64,000 nt of DNA from Thermanaeromonas sp. C210 (GTDB lineage: Bacteria; Bacillota; DSM-521; Neomoorellales; Neomoorellaceae): the NCBI RefSeq assembly GCF_013167955.1, contig NZ_BLWF01000001.1, forward strand, positions 310,001 to 374,000, given 5' to 3'. Shown here piece after piece: positions 5,183 through 50,165 of this stretch. Below the pieces are notes generated by a model. That model worked only from the letters and a program-made list of their open reading frames with translations, was not told where the DNA came from and made no database searches. Position 1 is the stretch's first letter; every line of letters begins with the position of its first letter. A program made the translations under genes and the position numbers.

Positions 5183-7072
5183 GTGTTGGTATTCATTGCA
5201 GCAACCCTGGCCCTCCTAACGGGGTCTTACTTCCTGGCTAATCGGCTAGCCCCTAAGTGTCGGGCCGACCGCTGGCTGGCGTGCGGCCTGTTGTTTCTTT
5301 GCGGTCAAGTGCTGATCCTCCTGGTGGCCGGCGCCCTGCTAAAACAGCTTCACCGGGGGGCGGTTTTACTCCTTGCCCTGGCCTGGCTGGGTATAGGTAT
5401 ATGGCAGGCCCTTCTTTCTCCCCTTGAGCAGCGAAACTTGGGGCTAAGTCCCACCGGCGCCATCCATCTTTTAGCCGGTAACCGTCTCCTGCTAGTCGTC
5501 GGTGGCCTGCTCGTCTTCAGCCTATCTTCCCTGGCCATGGGCTGGATTTACCTTCCCCCCTTTGCCTGGGACGAAATTTGGTACCACCTTACTCCTGTAG
5601 CCGCATGGATCAAACAGGGAGCCATTACCCAATTGCCCGAAGCCCTCCTCTGGCAAAACTACGATCCCCACCGGGTGTCTCCCGGTCAACTGGCCCTGGA
5701 TTTCAGTACAGCCTTCAACTGGGCCAATGTTTATCCCCTCAATGCTGAGCTCAGCGCCCTTTGGAATATGGTGCTCCTGAACAGCGATATTCTGGCCGAT
5801 GCAGCCCAGCTCCCCTTTGTGCTGGTGGGAGCCCTGGCCACCTACGGCCTGAGCAGGTCGGCGGGCGCCCGGCCGGACTCTTCTGTCCTCGCAACCATGC
5901 TCTTTTTATTGACGCCTATGATTTTAATCCAGCTGCGGGTGGCCTACGCCGATGCCGCCTTCGGCTCCCTGGTGGCCGCTTCCTTATATGTACTGTTGAG
6001 GTGGCAAAGGGAGCTTAACCTAAGTTATGCCCTTCTCCTGGGAGTAACCTTGGGGCTCATGATGGGCATCAAAGCCCCCGGAATCGCCTTCGCCGGCATC
6101 CTTGGTCTGGCCGCCCTGGGGTACGGGTGGTGGCAATGTCGGTGCGGCCGCTTAACCGGACGTGCCCTCCTTGTCCAGGCCGTAGTGGCCCTGGGGGGCC
6201 TGGTCTCGACCGGCGGCTTCTGGTATCTCCGCACGTGGTGGTTTTACGGCAACCCCGTCTACCCCGTCCAGGTAAAATTCCTCGCCTGGACGCTGCCCGG
6301 CATGGGCGACGTATCCGACCTCTTCATGGCCCATAACACTCCCCCCGCCTACCACCACCGACCACTCGTGCTCAATATTCTTACTTCCTGGTTGGAACTT
6401 GGCGGGGAATCTTATAACTATTATTCCCGAACCCGCGGCCTGGGGCCAGCCTGGGCCGCCCTCGCCCTCCCGGCCCTTGGGGCCTTTGCCTTTTACGCCC
6501 TCCGCCGGCGGCGGCCTGCGGCCCTGTGGATGACCGGTCTTACGGCCTTGCTGCTGTTCGTCCAGCCGGCTCCGTGGTGGCCTCGATACGTCCTATACGT
6601 GGTGCCCGTCGGCCTGGCTGCTCTAGTCTGGGTTTACGAGCGACTGCCGAAGGCGGCACAAACCCTGGCGGCCGCCTTGTTAATCCTCAACCTGGCAGTG
6701 TCCACCACCCTCGCCCTCGGCGAAACCTTGGGGAAACTGCCACTGGCCATGCGCCTGGAGGCACCTCGACGAACCTTTGGCCAGCTTTACTTTCAAGATT
6801 ATGCTTGGGTGGACGAAGTGCCGCCGAGCCGCATAGGCCATACTCCTATGGCCTGGATCTACCCCCTGTACGGCGGATTGCGCCACGAAGTATCCCTGGT
6901 GGATGCCCCGTCTCCTTCCTCCTGGGCGGAAGCCATTCGGCGCCAGTCCCTGGATTTTGTGGTGGTAAAGCCCGATTACGGTCCTTACGCCACCTGGGCC
7001 CGGCACATGCCTGATTTGTTGGAACTCTACCGGAAAGGAGAATACATCCATGTCTACCGGGTCCGGCCCTGA
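5183..7072 (+). CDS. GT-C-type membrane glycosyltransferase (ArnT/PMT-like)
   Basis: This 629-residue protein has about a dozen hydrophobic helices and, after the second or third, an acidic loop with W-D-E-I-W-Y-H-L near residue 132. The D-E pair in the first large loop is the pattern of GT-C glycosyltransferases, which use polyprenyl-phosphate sugars. The second half is membrane-embedded with a short soluble tail (about 540-629). The start is a GTG at 5183 downstream of GGAGGG (spacing long, about 12); a TTG at 5186 is possible. The sugar donor, acceptor and pathway are unknown, and no neighbouring glycan genes help. Confidence 0.7.
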   Translation: MLVFIAATLALLTGSYFLANRLAPKCRADRWLACGLLFLCGQVLILLVAGALLKQLHRGAVLLLALAWLGIGIWQALLSPLEQRNLGLSPTGAIHLLAGNRLLLVVGGLLVFSLSSLAMGWIYLPPFAWDEIWYHLTPVAAWIKQGAITQLPEALLWQNYDPHRVSPGQLALDFSTAFNWANVYPLNAELSALWNMVLLNSDILADAAQLPFVLVGALATYGLSRSAGARPDSSVLATMLFLLTPMILIQLRVAYADAAFGSLVAASLYVLLRWQRELNLSYALLLGVTLGLMMGIKAPGIAFAGILGLAALGYGWWQCRCGRLTGRALLVQAVVALGGLVSTGGFWYLRTWWFYGNPVYPVQVKFLAWTLPGMGDVSDLFMAHNTPPAYHHRPLVLNILTSWLELGGESYNYYSRTRGLGPAWAALALPALGAFAFYALRRRRPAALWMTGLTALLLFVQPAPWWPRYVLYVVPVGLAALVWVYERLPKAAQTLAAALLILNLAVSTTLALGETLGKLPLAMRLEAPRRTFGQLYFQDYAWVDEVPPSRIGHTPMAWIYPLYGGLRHEVSLVDAPSPSSWAEAIRRQSLDFVVVKPDYGPYATWARHMPDLLELYRKGEYIHVYRVRP

Positions 7073-13031: not shown

Positions 13032-13189
13032 AAGGGGCTACCTCCCTCTCCCATAAGAAATTTACCCTCCCCCACCGCGACCGCGGAGGTTACTGGGGCT
13101 TTTGTTAGCTGGCAACAATACGCCGGAACCGTCACCGTCCTGGGGGCATAGAAGGCTGATGGAGTCTTAAGGGAGAGAGAGCAGAGGTG

Positions 13190-13440
13190 TTACCCGGCGC
13201 CCTTTGTCCCCGGGATTGCTCCCGGGTTTTGTAGCGCCTTTGACGGTCGTAACCAACCGAGGGGCACCCGCCGAAAACCTCGATAAACCCCTTCCTCGTC
13301 AACCACCAGATCCCCGCAGCCTCCCAAAAGGGCTTTGCCTGACTAAAAGTAGCTCGGCAGGCCGCGTCCCGGAAACAACGTATAGCCGTTGCTCGCCCCG
13401 GATCGGGAGGACGGACTAATCCGCTGGTGGTCCTGGCGCT
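13190..13440 (-). ncRNA. glmS ribozyme-riboswitch
   Basis: In the glmS leader the minus strand begins A-GCGCCAG (cleavage expected between 13440 and 13439). It later shows the conserved core GACGAGG (13294-13300), TTATCGAG and TTCGGCGG, then GGACAAAGG near 13200. Glucosamine-6-phosphate acts as cofactor for self-cleavage, which destabilises the mRNA. The P1 arm (ACCACCAG, 13424-13431, with CTGGTGGT, 13302-13309) is capped by a 114-base extension, so the element is longer than the common form of roughly 150-200 bases. A CCCGGG-AGCAAT-CCCGGG hairpin forms a peripheral arm near 13210-13230. Confidence 0.93.
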
Positions 13441-13485
13441 TGTTTACCCTCCGAACCTCAGTCTCTCCCCCTAGAAGAATTGGCA

Positions 13486-46028: not shown

Positions 46029-46256
46029 TTGGCGGAATACTTTATCGACAGCCTAGGGGAGATGTGCCCGGTTCCCAACATCAAAGTGCGGGAGAAGTTA
46101 AAGGAGCTTGAGATGGGAGACGAGATCATCCTGGAAACGGACCACAGTTGCGCCACTACTACCATCATGAACGAAATGCGGCGTAAAGGGTACAAGACCA
46201 AGTTAGAAGAAGTAGATACGGGCATCTGGAGGGTCATCATCCGGCGGGTAAGGTAA
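46029..46256 (+). CDS. TusA/YeeD-family sulfur carrier protein, first copy
   Basis: The 75-residue protein has the CPxP motif at C13 (E-M-C-P-V-P-N-I-K) that carries a persulfide or selenide, and a second conserved cysteine, C41 (D-H-S-C-A). It starts with a TTG downstream of GGGGAGGG. Its stop directly abuts the stop of the convergent LysR gene. It is similar to the second TusA at 47996 (D-S/A-L-G-E-x-C-P-V-P, D-H-S-C-A), so the two are paralogues. It probably passes sulfur or selenium delivered by the YeeE transporter to cytoplasmic acceptors. Confidence 0.9.
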   Translation: MAEYFIDSLGEMCPVPNIKVREKLKELEMGDEIILETDHSCATTTIMNEMRRKGYKTKLEEVDTGIWRVIIRRVR

Positions 46257-47159
46257 CTAGCAGAAGCCCCGGTTGGGCGAGCGGAGAAAATTAACGAAGG
46301 CCTTGGCCAGCTTGCTCTGCACCCGTTCTTTGTAGTAGGCCAGGTAAATCTTCTGGGTAAAGTTTATTCCCTCCAGCCGGAGGGCCAGCAATGTTTTGGT
46401 GTAGAGTTCCTTCCGCAGGGCTAGGCGCGACATGATAGAGATGCCTACCCCCGCCTCCACGGCGGCTTTAATGGAATCCACATTGGCTAGCTCTACTATA
46501 ATGTTGAGCTGAGAAGGGTCGACCTTGACCGACCGGAGGGTTTCTTCAATATCTTGCCGGGTGCCCGAATCCGCTTCCCTCATAATGAGGGGTTGTACCT
46601 TAAATTCCTCCATGGTGAGGGTACTCCGCCCCCGCCAGGGGTCCTTGTTAGGGGCGATGATAACCAGTTCATCGGTAGCCAGCTCCCATTTCACAAAGGG
46701 GCCCTTTAAGTCCTTTCCCTCGATTAGGGCTATATCGACATAGCCCTCCTTTAAGTCGTGCATAATCTGCTTGCGGTTGCCTACTTTAAGTTTAAGCCGC
46801 GCCTCGGGGAATTTTTCCTTAAAGAGCCCGATGCTGCAGGGAACGGCGTAGCTGCCGATAATGGAGGTGGCGCCGATGGTGAGGTTACCGCTCACCGAAG
46901 CCCGGAGGTTTTCTATGTTGCCCTCTAATTGGTCGTAGAGAGTCACAATTCTGCAGGCGTAATCATAAAGCAATTCCCCGGCTTCGGTGAGGGTGACGCC
47001 CCTATTATTGCGCTCGATTAGCTGGACGGCGAAGTGATTTTCCAGGTGCTTAACCTGTTGGGTCACGGCCGGTTGGGTTAGAAAAAGACGCTGGGCCGTT
47101 TCCGATAGGTTCCCCGTTTCGGCGACGACCACAAAAGTCCGCAGGTAGTTGAGGTTCAT
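46257..47159 (-). CDS. LysR-family regulator of the sulfur/selenium cluster
   Basis: This 300-residue LysR regulator has an N-terminal winged helix (L-N-Y-L-R-T-F-V-V-V-A-E-T-G-N-L-S-E-T-A, T-Q-P-A-V-T-Q-Q) and a two-lobed ligand domain (about 90-290). The ligand domain resembles CysL/CbbR-type members (G-N-L-T-I-G-A-T, R-E-A-D-S-G-T-R). It is divergent from the yeeE-tusA-yeeE-flavoprotein genes. A 19-base palindrome sits 16 bases upstream of its start. Such regulators usually control the divergent operon. A sulfur- or selenium-linked co-inducer is inferred from context. Confidence 0.88.
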   Translation of the reverse strand: MNLNYLRTFVVVAETGNLSETAQRLFLTQPAVTQQVKHLENHFAVQLIERNNRGVTLTEAGELLYDYACRIVTLYDQLEGNIENLRASVSGNLTIGATSIIGSYAVPCSIGLFKEKFPEARLKLKVGNRKQIMHDLKEGYVDIALIEGKDLKGPFVKWELATDELVIIAPNKDPWRGRSTLTMEEFKVQPLIMREADSGTRQDIEETLRSVKVDPSQLNIIVELANVDSIKAAVEAGVGISIMSRLALRKELYTKTLLALRLEGINFTQKIYLAYYKERVQSKLAKAFVNFLRSPNRGFC

Positions 47160-47193: not shown

Positions 47194-47290
47194 TAGCATA
47201 AGGAAAGCTAAATTTACAAGGGTGGGAGCGAATGTTATAGTGGTGATAGTGAAGGCCTTCACAAGTTTTATACGAGGCGGAGGTGCAAAA

Positions 47291-47959
47291 ATGTCACAAA
47301 GTGAAGTTTCCCTTCGATCCCGGGTAAGTTCGCGGGCCCGGCCGAAGAAGAGCCAGCTGGCCTACGGGTTGGCCGTCCTGGCTCTGGTGGTGGTGCTGGG
47401 GATCTACTTGGGCAGCCTGAAAATCAGCCTAGCGGCCAAATGGATCATCGGTATTGCCTTTGGCCTGATCCTCCAGCGTTCCCGATTCTGCTTTACCGCT
47501 TCCATGCGCGATCCAGTACTCACCGGAAGCACCTCTTTGGCCCGGGCCGTCCTCATAGCCATCGCCGTGGCCACCGTGGGCTTTGCCGGCTTCCAATTTT
47601 CTGCCTACATGGGCGGCAACCCCATTCCCGGGCTGATCAGCCCTGTGGGCCTCCACACGGTGGTAGGGGCGGTCCTCTTCGGCATCGGCATGGTTATCGC
47701 CGGGGGCTGCGCCTCGGGTACCCTCATGAGGGTAGGCGAGGGTTTCGTAATGCTCATGGTGACCCTGGTATTCTTTGTCGTGGGTTCCGTGCTGGGGGCC
47801 ATACATTTGGGCTGGTGGCAGGGCTTTTCCGTCAAGTCTTCGCCCGCCGTATTTTTGCCCAATGTTTTAGGATGGCCTTTGGCCTTCTTTGGCCAGCTCG
47901 CCCTGTTGGGTGCCTTGTATTGGCTGGCCACTTGGTGGGAATACCGCAAAGTGGAATAA
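47291..47959 (+). CDS. YeeE/TsuA-type thiosulfate/selenium transporter, N-terminal half
   Basis: The 222-residue membrane protein has a basic start (1-20) and about five helices. It carries the first part of a YeeE/YedE (TsuA) transporter: R-S-R-F-C67-F-T and A-G-G-C140-A-S-G-T, where conserved cysteines relay thiosulfate in characterised TsuA. The C-terminal half is encoded separately at 48272-48814, with a TusA gene between. The frame is open 23 codons upstream, but the ATG at 47291 has GGAGGTG and is preferred. It is the first gene downstream of the LysR operator. Confidence 0.88.
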   Translation: MSQSEVSLRSRVSSRARPKKSQLAYGLAVLALVVVLGIYLGSLKISLAAKWIIGIAFGLILQRSRFCFTASMRDPVLTGSTSLARAVLIAIAVATVGFAGFQFSAYMGGNPIPGLISPVGLHTVVGAVLFGIGMVIAGGCASGTLMRVGEGFVMLMVTLVFFVVGSVLGAIHLGWWQGFSVKSSPAVFLPNVLGWPLAFFGQLALLGALYWLATWWEYRKVE

Positions 47960-47995: not shown

Positions 47996-48223
47996 ATGGC
48001 CGAATATGTTTTGGATGCCCTGGGAGAAGCCTGTCCCGTCCCCTTAATCCGCACGGAGAAAAAGATGAAGGAACTCAAGGTGGGGGACATCCTCATCGTC
48101 CAGGTGGATCATAGCTGTGCCATGAAAAATGTGCCCGAATGGGCCCGGAAACAGGGCTACAATGTAGAACTGGAAGAAGTGGAAGAAGGGCGCTGGGATA
48201 TTATAATCGAGAAGACCAAGTAA
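47996..48223 (+). CDS. TusA/YeeD-family sulfur carrier, second copy
   Basis: This 75-residue paralogue of the protein at 46029 has C13 in E-A-C-P-V-P-L-I-R and C41 in D-H-S-C-A. GGGAGGT precedes the ATG. It lies between the two halves of the split YeeE transporter, mirroring the known yeeE-yeeD pairing in which YeeD accepts thiosulfate-derived sulfur from YeeE. It is expected to act at the cytoplasmic face of the transporter. Confidence 0.92.
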   Translation: MAEYVLDALGEACPVPLIRTEKKMKELKVGDILIVQVDHSCAMKNVPEWARKQGYNVELEEVEEGRWDIIIEKTK

Positions 48224-48271: not shown

Positions 48272-48814
48272 ATGAGCAGGTACCGGGAAGAGGTGCAAAA
48301 GTTAAAAAACGCTCTTTTGAAGGAGGCTTTACCCTACTGGCTGGGTGGAATTTTGCTGGGCATTTTGAATATCACCCATTTTGTCACCTTCGGGGTGCCG
48401 CTGGGGATTACTACTGCTTTTACCAACTGGGGCGCCTGGATTGCCAAGGCTTTAGGCTTTCACCCGGAAAATTGGGCTTTTTACCAGTCTCCAGCCAATG
48501 CCAAGATGCTGGCCGACGGTTTCCTCAACGACGGCGGTTCTATTATGAACATAGGTATTATCCTGGGAGCCCTTTTAGCTACTTTGCTAGCCTCCCAGTT
48601 CAGGATTAAAAAGATTAAAAACTACAAACAGGTAATTGGGGCAGTCGGCGGCGGAATCTTAATGGGCTACGGCGCCCGGATTGCCTACGGCTGAAACATT
48701 GGGGCACTGTTTAGCGGCACGGCTTCGATGTCGCTTCACGGCTGGGTGTTTATGGTGTTCCTTTTTGTAGGTGCCTTCTTCGGTTCCCGGATCCTCACCA
48801 GATACCTTATTTAG
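48272..48814 (+). CDS. YeeE/TsuA-type transporter, C-terminal half, with probable selenocysteine at an in-frame TGA
   Basis: From the ATG at 48272 (site GGAGG) 140 codons encode four helices ending M-G-Y-G-A-R-I-A-Y-G. A TGA at 48692-48694 follows, then N-I-G-A-L-F-S-G-T-A-S, S-L-H-G-W and a last helix to TAG at 48814, total 180 residues. As I recall the family, G-C-N-I-G-A is conserved here, so the TGA replaces the conserved cysteine. A SECIS-like hairpin begins two bases after it. Selenocysteine at residue 141 is the best reading; a nonsense mutation is the alternative. The protein completes the transporter begun by the gene at 47291. Confidence 0.75.
48695..48730 (+). promoter_or_regulatory. 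SECIS-like hairpin directly after the in-frame TGA
   Basis: CATTGGGGC (48697-48705) pairs with GCTTCGATG (48722-48730) over nine base pairs, three of them G-U. Three more pairs with bulges can form above. They leave an apical loop UUUAGCGG whose distance from the UGA (15 bases) is at the short edge of the bacterial SECIS range. The fold is by eye and unscored. Confidence 0.5.
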
Positions 48815-48885: not shown

Positions 48886-50124
48886 GTGGGAGAAAAAAGG
48901 ATCGAAGAATATGATGTAGTTATTATCGGCGGGGGCGCAGCCGGGATGACGGCGGCCATTTATACCGGTCGGGCCCGCCTCAAGACTATGTTACTGGAGA
49001 AAACGTTGCTGGGGGGCTTGGCTACTTATACCAACGAGATTGAAAATTACCCCGGCTTTCCCGAGGGCACTACCGGCCAGGGCCTCATGCAGCTTTTCGA
49101 GCAGCAGGCCAAGAAATTTAACGTCAAGATAAAGCTGGCTGAAGTAAAAGAAGTGGACCTGGAAGGGGAGACTAAGGTAGTAAAGACCTTCCGCACTGAC
49201 TACCATGCTAAAGCGGTCATCATAGCTACCGGTGGTAAACCCCGCTTGACAGGCGCCAAGGGGGAAGAAAAATTCCTCTTTGGCAAGGGCATTTCCTTCT
49301 GCGCCACCTGTGACGCGGCCTATTATACAGGCAAAGAAGTCATGGTAGTGGGCAGCGGGGATGCGGCCATCGAAGAAGCCATCTTCCTGACCAAGTTTGC
49401 CAGCAAGGTATATATTTCGGTCATCCACGAGGAGGGCATCATGGACGCCAACAAGGTGGCCCAGGAACAGGCCCTCAAAAATGAGAAAATCCATTTTATA
49501 TGGAATACCATGGTGGATGAATTTGTAGGAGAAGAGACCCTGGAGACGGTCATCCTTAAGAACATCAAGACCGGCGAAAGGCTCCCGGTCAGGGTGGACG
49601 GCTGTTTCCTCTTTATCGGCTATGAGCCGGATACCGCAATCTTCCGCGGCATCTTGGACATGAACGAGCGCGGTTACATCCTTACCGATGAAATGATGCA
49701 GACCAACATTCCCGGCGTGTTTGCGGCGGGCGATGTCCGGGAAAAAATCCTGCGCCAGGTGGCCACGGCCGTGGGGGATGGAGCAGTGGCCGGCTTTATG
49801 GCCGAACGCTATATCGCGGAAACCGACTATTTTAACAGCGAATTCCGGGATGTTCGAGGGCCGCAGTTGGTTTTTTGTTACGATCCCACCGACGCCTGCT
49901 GCCGGAGTTGGATGCCGATTATAGAAGATCTCGTTAAGAGACATCCCCAGATCAAACTCAGCAAAATCGATGTATACAAATCCAAGAGTCTGGCCGAAAG
50001 GTTGGGGGCCAAGGGAGAGCCTTGCGTGGTCCTCATGCAGGACGGCGCTATCGCCCAAGTTTTATCCCTGGAGGGATTATCCCCGGGAATCGTTGAGGAG
50101 CGGATTAAGACTTTATCCGCCTAG
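48886..50124 (+). CDS. Thioredoxin-reductase-like flavoprotein with C-terminal thioredoxin-like domain
   Basis: The first 310 residues are a thioredoxin-reductase fold: FAD motif G15-G-G-A-A-G, redox pair C139-A-T-C142-D and an NAD(P) motif G157-S-G-D-A. The last helix has A-G-D-V-R-E-K. Residues 325-412 form a thioredoxin-like domain in which the usual W-C-x-x-C is replaced by a C331 and the pair C338-C339, with a cis-Pro-like P379. The GTG follows GGGGAGG. As last gene of the cluster it probably reduces the carrier persulfide/selenide or the transporter cysteines. A terminator follows. Confidence 0.85.
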   Translation: MGEKRIEEYDVVIIGGGAAGMTAAIYTGRARLKTMLLEKTLLGGLATYTNEIENYPGFPEGTTGQGLMQLFEQQAKKFNVKIKLAEVKEVDLEGETKVVKTFRTDYHAKAVIIATGGKPRLTGAKGEEKFLFGKGISFCATCDAAYYTGKEVMVVGSGDAAIEEAIFLTKFASKVYISVIHEEGIMDANKVAQEQALKNEKIHFIWNTMVDEFVGEETLETVILKNIKTGERLPVRVDGCFLFIGYEPDTAIFRGILDMNERGYILTDEMMQTNIPGVFAAGDVREKILRQVATAVGDGAVAGFMAERYIAETDYFNSEFRDVRGPQLVFCYDPTDACCRSWMPIIEDLVKRHPQIKLSKIDVYKSKSLAERLGAKGEPCVVLMQDGAIAQVLSLEGLSPGIVEERIKTLSA

Positions 50125-50139
50125 TAATTCATCCTAGGG

Positions 50140-50165
50140 GCCTGGCCGAGCAGCCAGGCTTTTTT
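50140..50165 (+). terminator. Terminator of the sulfur/selenium operon
   Basis: GCCTGGC and GCCAGGC form a 7-bp stem with a 6-base loop, followed by TTTTTT. Confidence 0.9.

Follow-up and report, generated by a model that had tools for sequence, protein, structure and literature searches.

A predicted selenocysteine in place of the first relay cysteine of a split YeeE/YedE-type transporter from Thermanaeromonas sp. C210

Transporters of the YeeE/YedE type (PF04143, Sulf_transp) have been described as single chains and as split proteins. TsuA (YeeE) of Spirochaeta thermophila, with its partner TsuB (YeeD), is the family member with solved structures found here (PDB 6leo, 8k1r), and a hydrogen-bond relay has been proposed for its cargo, thiosulfate. 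The relay runs over C293, C91 and C22 as first to third residues, and a cysteine of YeeD is the fourth (PMC11073785). Both C91 and C293 were described as indispensable (PMC11582611). In PmpA and PmpB, the YeeE halves are two short proteins that match both halves of the family and carry cysteines at the C91 and C293 positions (PMC11582611). A YeeE/YedE family of selenoproteins, represented by WP_012471001.1, has already been listed in two reviews (PMC13188914; PMC9312934), the newer of which gives its motif as GUxSG (PMC13188914).

A transporter of this type is encoded in the window analysed here, a stretch of 64,000 nucleotides from Thermanaeromonas sp. C210 to which all coordinates refer unless stated otherwise. 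Its two halves are separate genes. YeeE_N (47291..47959, + strand) matches positions 1-153 of the Sulf_transp profile (E 8.1e-30; 104.9 bits), and the read-through product of YeeE_C (48272..48814, + strand) matches positions 164-309 (E 6.8e-36; 124.8 bits), both exceeding the PF04143 gathering score of 27. TusA2, a TusA-like carrier (47996..48223, + strand; Pfam TusA, E 2.7e-24) with the cysteine of its CPVP motif (Cys13) encoded at 48032-48034, lies between the halves. The next gene (48886..50124, + strand) encodes a thioredoxin-reductase-like flavoprotein (Pyr_redox_2, E 4.9e-52; CATC at 49300-49311), to which a degenerate thioredoxin domain (Thioredoxin, E 4.4e-7) is fused. This protein scores 349.1 bits with TIGR01292, just over the cut-off of 343.45, and its thioredoxin domain is without CxxC. 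Divergent from the operon is a LysR regulator (46257..47159, - strand), which is adjoined by TusA1, another TusA-like carrier with a CPVP motif (46029..46256, + strand; Pfam TusA, E 3.8e-15) that is present in most module-bearing loci. The operon is preceded by a promoter-like sequence (TTTACA, 17 nt, TATAGT; 47213..47241, + strand) that agrees with the consensus at 10 of 12 positions, which is near chance frequency for the region. It is followed by a terminator-like hairpin (50136..50163, + strand), an 11-pair stem and a T-rich tail that match the consensus only. Elsewhere in the window, a glmS riboswitch/ribozyme was detected on the minus strand (13185-13451; 100.7 bits).

The YeeE_C frame begins with ATG at 48272 behind a strong ribosome-binding site (AAAGGAGG), contains a TGA at 48692-48694 and ends with TAG at 48812-48814. 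It is a single frame throughout, and the 39 codons between TGA and TAG are free of further stops. Read through, it encodes a 180-aa protein with the sequence GARIAYG-U-NIGALFSGTASMSLHGW...YLI-stop, whereas annotation by the standard code truncates YeeE_C at residue 140 and thereby hides the protein. The interruption had been described in the same way in an earlier note on this DNA, made from the letters alone, which also proposed that selenocysteine (Sec) replaces the transport cysteine. The comparison with TsuA agrees with that proposal. With phmmer, an ungapped alignment of residues 91-175 of YeeE_C to residues 243-327 of TsuA was obtained, in which Sec141 falls on Cys293, the first relay cysteine. 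When YeeE_N was compared with 6leo by phmmer, Cys67 fell on C22 and Cys140 on C91, and the codon is TGC at both positions (47489-47491 and 47708-47710 respectively). The C22-type cysteine is present in all loci compared except one (G027). Since the C91 and C22 equivalents remain cysteines, only the outermost relay residue appears to have been exchanged for Sec. The predicted structure of the YeeE_C half by itself has low confidence (mean pLDDT 65.6, weak around residue 141), and the position of Sec is therefore taken from the alignment.

The UGA at 48692 is almost certainly decoded as Sec, as judged from four independent lines of sequence evidence: the decoding machinery, the conservation of the codon, selection downstream of it and an RNA footprint. 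The source genome assembly (19 contigs, 99.4% complete) contains selA (617 bits, cut-off 268), selB (379 bits, cut-off 242), selD (411 bits) and a tRNA-Sec with anticodon UCA. Its selD, too, contains a single in-frame TGA (L125; G000:C3:102936-103868), so that SelD is probably also a selenoprotein. The UGA might alternatively be read as another amino acid, through a tRNA-Cys with a UCA anticodon, as Trp or by general reassignment, and insertion of Cys would indeed restore function because the homologous residue is Cys. However, the canonical tRNA-Sec is present together with selA, selB and selD, and such read-through would need no SelB-type hairpin. A mechanical count also speaks against such read-through: among 40 long open frames of the window, six still end with TGA. 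Decoding as an amino acid other than Sec is thus very improbable.

When 398 genomes of the phylum were scanned, the same TGA in YeeE_C was found in ten of them, from two families. Six of these loci are in Moorellaceae, namely the source genome and five others with 81-85% identity to it. The remaining four, with 65-67% identity to the source locus, are in a second family, which we infer to be the one including Thermosediminibacter. All ten TGA genomes contain selA, and the genomes with Cys are a mixture of selA-positive and selA-negative. The Sec141 column holds Cys or TGA in every one of the 41 rows of the alignment (A3). Cys stands opposite the TGA in all other YeeE/YedE homologues examined, encoded by TGC or TGT in those read, which include G057 and G263 of the second family and G350 and G309 of the sister family; G411 and G414 likewise have no stop at this codon. 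Two other matches to GGNTGAAAYATHGGNGC in the phylum that were examined in a readable frame (L160, L163) were not YeeE, and the remaining matches were about as frequent as those to a reversed control pattern.

Within families, pN/pS over all codons downstream of the TGA is 0.09-0.19, close to the 0.07-0.16 found upstream, and the synonymous sites have diverged well. Such values are not expected of a dead 3' part and indicate purifying selection. These data bear on the possibility that the TGA is a nonsense mutation that leaves a pseudogene or a protein of 140 aa only. The standard code does end the frame at 48694, but the codon is kept in ten genomes, no later stop follows, the downstream part is under purifying selection rather than degraded in the orthologues, and both a SECIS footprint and the Sec machinery are present. 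A pseudogene was rejected because of conservation and selection, and a nonsense mutation, which the earlier note had also considered unlikely, is hardly credible. Three features by which bacterial selenoproteins are recognized in sequence data are present here: a conserved TGA with Cys elsewhere, a SECIS-type hairpin downstream and, in the genome, the machinery for Sec decoding.

The RNA element that likely serves as SECIS is a hairpin at 48713..48735 (+ strand; AGCGGCACG-GCTT-CG(A)TGTCGCT), which begins 19 nt 3' of the TGA and has 9 bp with one bulged A. Between the two families, synonymous codon identity reaches 90% at codons +6 to +17, against 37% upstream of the TGA and 36% at codons +18 to +40, and the former stretch ranks first among 175 sliding windows. 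Every one of the ten TGA loci has the hairpin intact, while the Cys loci have between one and three of the nine pairs broken. Folding of the source sequence gave -10.2 kcal/mol (z -2.6 against shuffles), or -16.3 kcal/mol (z -3.0) with flanks. Because the hairpin is invariant among the TGA loci, there are no compensatory changes, and the support for pairing comes from synonymous constraint and from decay in the Cys loci, not from covariation. A different hairpin, also of 9 bp but beginning only two bases 3' of the TGA (48697-48705 paired with 48722-48730), had been put forward previously. It can form in the source sequence, but it is not the conserved one: its 5' arm varies synonymously (identity 0.47 at codons +1 to +5) and its pairs break in several of the other TGA genomes, and it was rejected as the SECIS. 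The two hairpins are mutually exclusive because both use 48722-48730. SECIS-like structures in Cys homologues have been reported previously (PMC1794560). One is found here in G350 (L176, around 5835-5894, minus strand), where the codon is TGC and one pair is broken but the footprint is kept, with a synonymous identity to Moorellaceae of 0.875 compared with 0.35 upstream. This hairpin is likely a relic SECIS from which Sec was recently lost; selA is still present in the genome.

The G350 relic also bears on the history of the codon. When a tree was built from both halves without the Sec column, two changes sufficed under plain parsimony, which allows two independent gains of Sec. The footprint, identical in the two families, and the G350 relic speak against two gains, and a single gain followed by about three losses is the preferred scenario. 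That the identity is due to a recent transfer of the entire segment from one family to the other was rejected, as synonymous identity flanking the footprint is only 0.36-0.37.

All six TGA loci of Moorellaceae share the order TusA1, LysR (opposite strand), YeeE_N, TusA2, YeeE_C and flavoprotein, which the second family and several Cys loci also show with small rearrangements. Within the module, conservation is highest for TusA2 (93-99% identity among Moorellaceae and 71-80% in most of the other families). In the flavoprotein, the TGA loci have one conserved cysteine in CYDPTD. Two genomes with Cys, G263 (L174) and G057 (L175), are without TusA2 and have at most a 23-24% match to the flavoprotein; TusA1, LysR and both transporter halves are kept.

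From the residue equivalence, the Sec codon, the SECIS-type constraint and the operon, all of them read from the sequence, we infer the substrate, direction, chemistry and role of the reductase as follows. SelB and tRNA-Sec would decode the UGA at 48692 under the direction of the hairpin at 48713-48735, and YeeE_C and YeeE_N would together form one YeeE/YedE-type channel. The imported cargo would most likely be thiosulfate, polysulfide, sulfane sulfur or a similar sulfur species. It would be contacted first by the selenol of Sec141, handed over to Cys140 and Cys67 of YeeE_N, and delivered by YeeE_N to Cys13 of TusA2. The flavoprotein encoded next probably gives the reducing power for stripping the sulfur. 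Taken as a whole, this model of a Sec-containing channel with hairpin-directed decoding and import of sulfur species is considered likely.

For the cargo itself, an imported sulfur species is favoured with moderate confidence. TsuA, the family member with known structures, carries thiosulfate. A fused Cys-type YeeE paralogue occurs in many Moorellaceae, and in the genomes read it stands beside a molybdopterin reductase, a neighbour that also favours sulfur. In G013 (L185 5641-10825), the genes next to this paralogue encode, besides the molybdopterin reductase, a ferredoxin subunit and a subunit of the cytochrome b561 type, and a LysR gene of NF040786 lies on the other strand. The closest match of the G013 reductase is thiosulfate reductase PhsA, with a score below the model cut-off. 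Finally, a Cys form of the module occurs in G309, G363 and G042, genomes in which no true selA was found.

A transporter with Sec could instead move selenium, as selenide, selenosulfate or organic selenium, so that Sec-dependent uptake or export would be controlled by a selenium-responsive LysR. YedE has been proposed as a selenium transporter from its co-occurrence with SelD (PMC5322559), although selenium transport was not clearly affected when yedE was deleted in Methanococcus (PMC11097638). The best NCBIfam match of both halves is likewise YedE/FdhT (NF033796), a model of selenium metabolism, but the scores of 101.5 and 112.5 bits, each half being scored alone, are far under its cut-off of 350. 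The LysR protein scores 269.2 bits with NF040786 (LysR_Sec_metab) and exceeds the cut-off of 250 by a small margin. Among its orthologues, which score 253-271 bits, are a regulator from a genome negative for selA and another that adjoins the PhsA-like reductase, so that the selenium specificity of LysR is uncertain. The persistence of the Cys module in the three genomes named above also speaks against selenium, which is regarded as a rather unlikely cargo.

With a sulfur species as the preferred cargo, the chemistry of the first relay step can be considered. At neutral pH a selenol is mostly in the ionised form, and for this reason nucleophilic exchange with sulfane sulfur would fit it better than the donation of hydrogen bonds. 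Sec may then act as a nucleophile that forms a transient selenenyl-sulfide with the cargo, which would be passed by exchange to the cysteines and to TusA. Such covalent group translocation, which differs from the hydrogen-bond relay proposed for TsuA, is suggested as a tentative possibility. Import would then also depend on the selenium supply, since termination at the UGA removes the last helix. The natural Sec/Cys pairs are available for testing hydrogen bonds against covalent exchange in the YeeE relay.

To our knowledge, Sec is known mainly from redox enzymes, and its use as a transport residue has so far been an entry in a list. Here, in a relay with a solved Cys homologue, exactly one Cys was exchanged for Sec, apparently once, and Sec was lost again in sister lineages. 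No other report of such a Sec transporter was found in the literature searched, which covered a minority of subscription papers. YeeE_C was not listed in the 2006 selenoproteome of Moorella thermoacetica (PMC1794560). The single-contig genomes G005 and G013, of a genus (g5) that includes Moorella-named records (L011, L012), contain the fused Cys paralogue only, which would explain this absence if M. thermoacetica resembles them.

Among the described systems, TsuA and TsuB share with this locus the PF04143 family, representation of the C293, C91 and C22 positions and a TusA-type partner in the operon. Unlike TsuA, the transporter consists of two half-proteins rather than one chain, with Sec in place of C293, and the halves stay far below the cut-offs of both TsuA models (54.5 and 78.1 bits against 400 for NF052577; 45.9 and 59.4 bits against 645 for NF041049). 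The division into halves is shared with PmpA and PmpB, but here the halves are longer, a TusA gene lies in between and the PmpA-like half carries Sec. The FdhT/YedE model, although the best match, has its two halves in the opposite order. The source genome also encodes a separate fused YeeE-type protein in the FdhT order, with the PPCNVGG half first (L184; G000:C1:480723-481193), which is followed by a TusA-like gene and forms an FdhTU-like pair. The listed selenoprotein WP_012471001.1 belongs to the same Pfam family and also has one Sec in a YeeE/YedE protein (PMC13188914). Compared by its printed motif only, GUxSG fits the GCASG site of the first half (C91), whereas here GCASG keeps its Cys and Sec lies in GUNIG at the C293 site. 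Thus, the Sec site is apparently new for a selenoprotein family that is already known, and it lies in a split transporter whose relay mechanism is clear.
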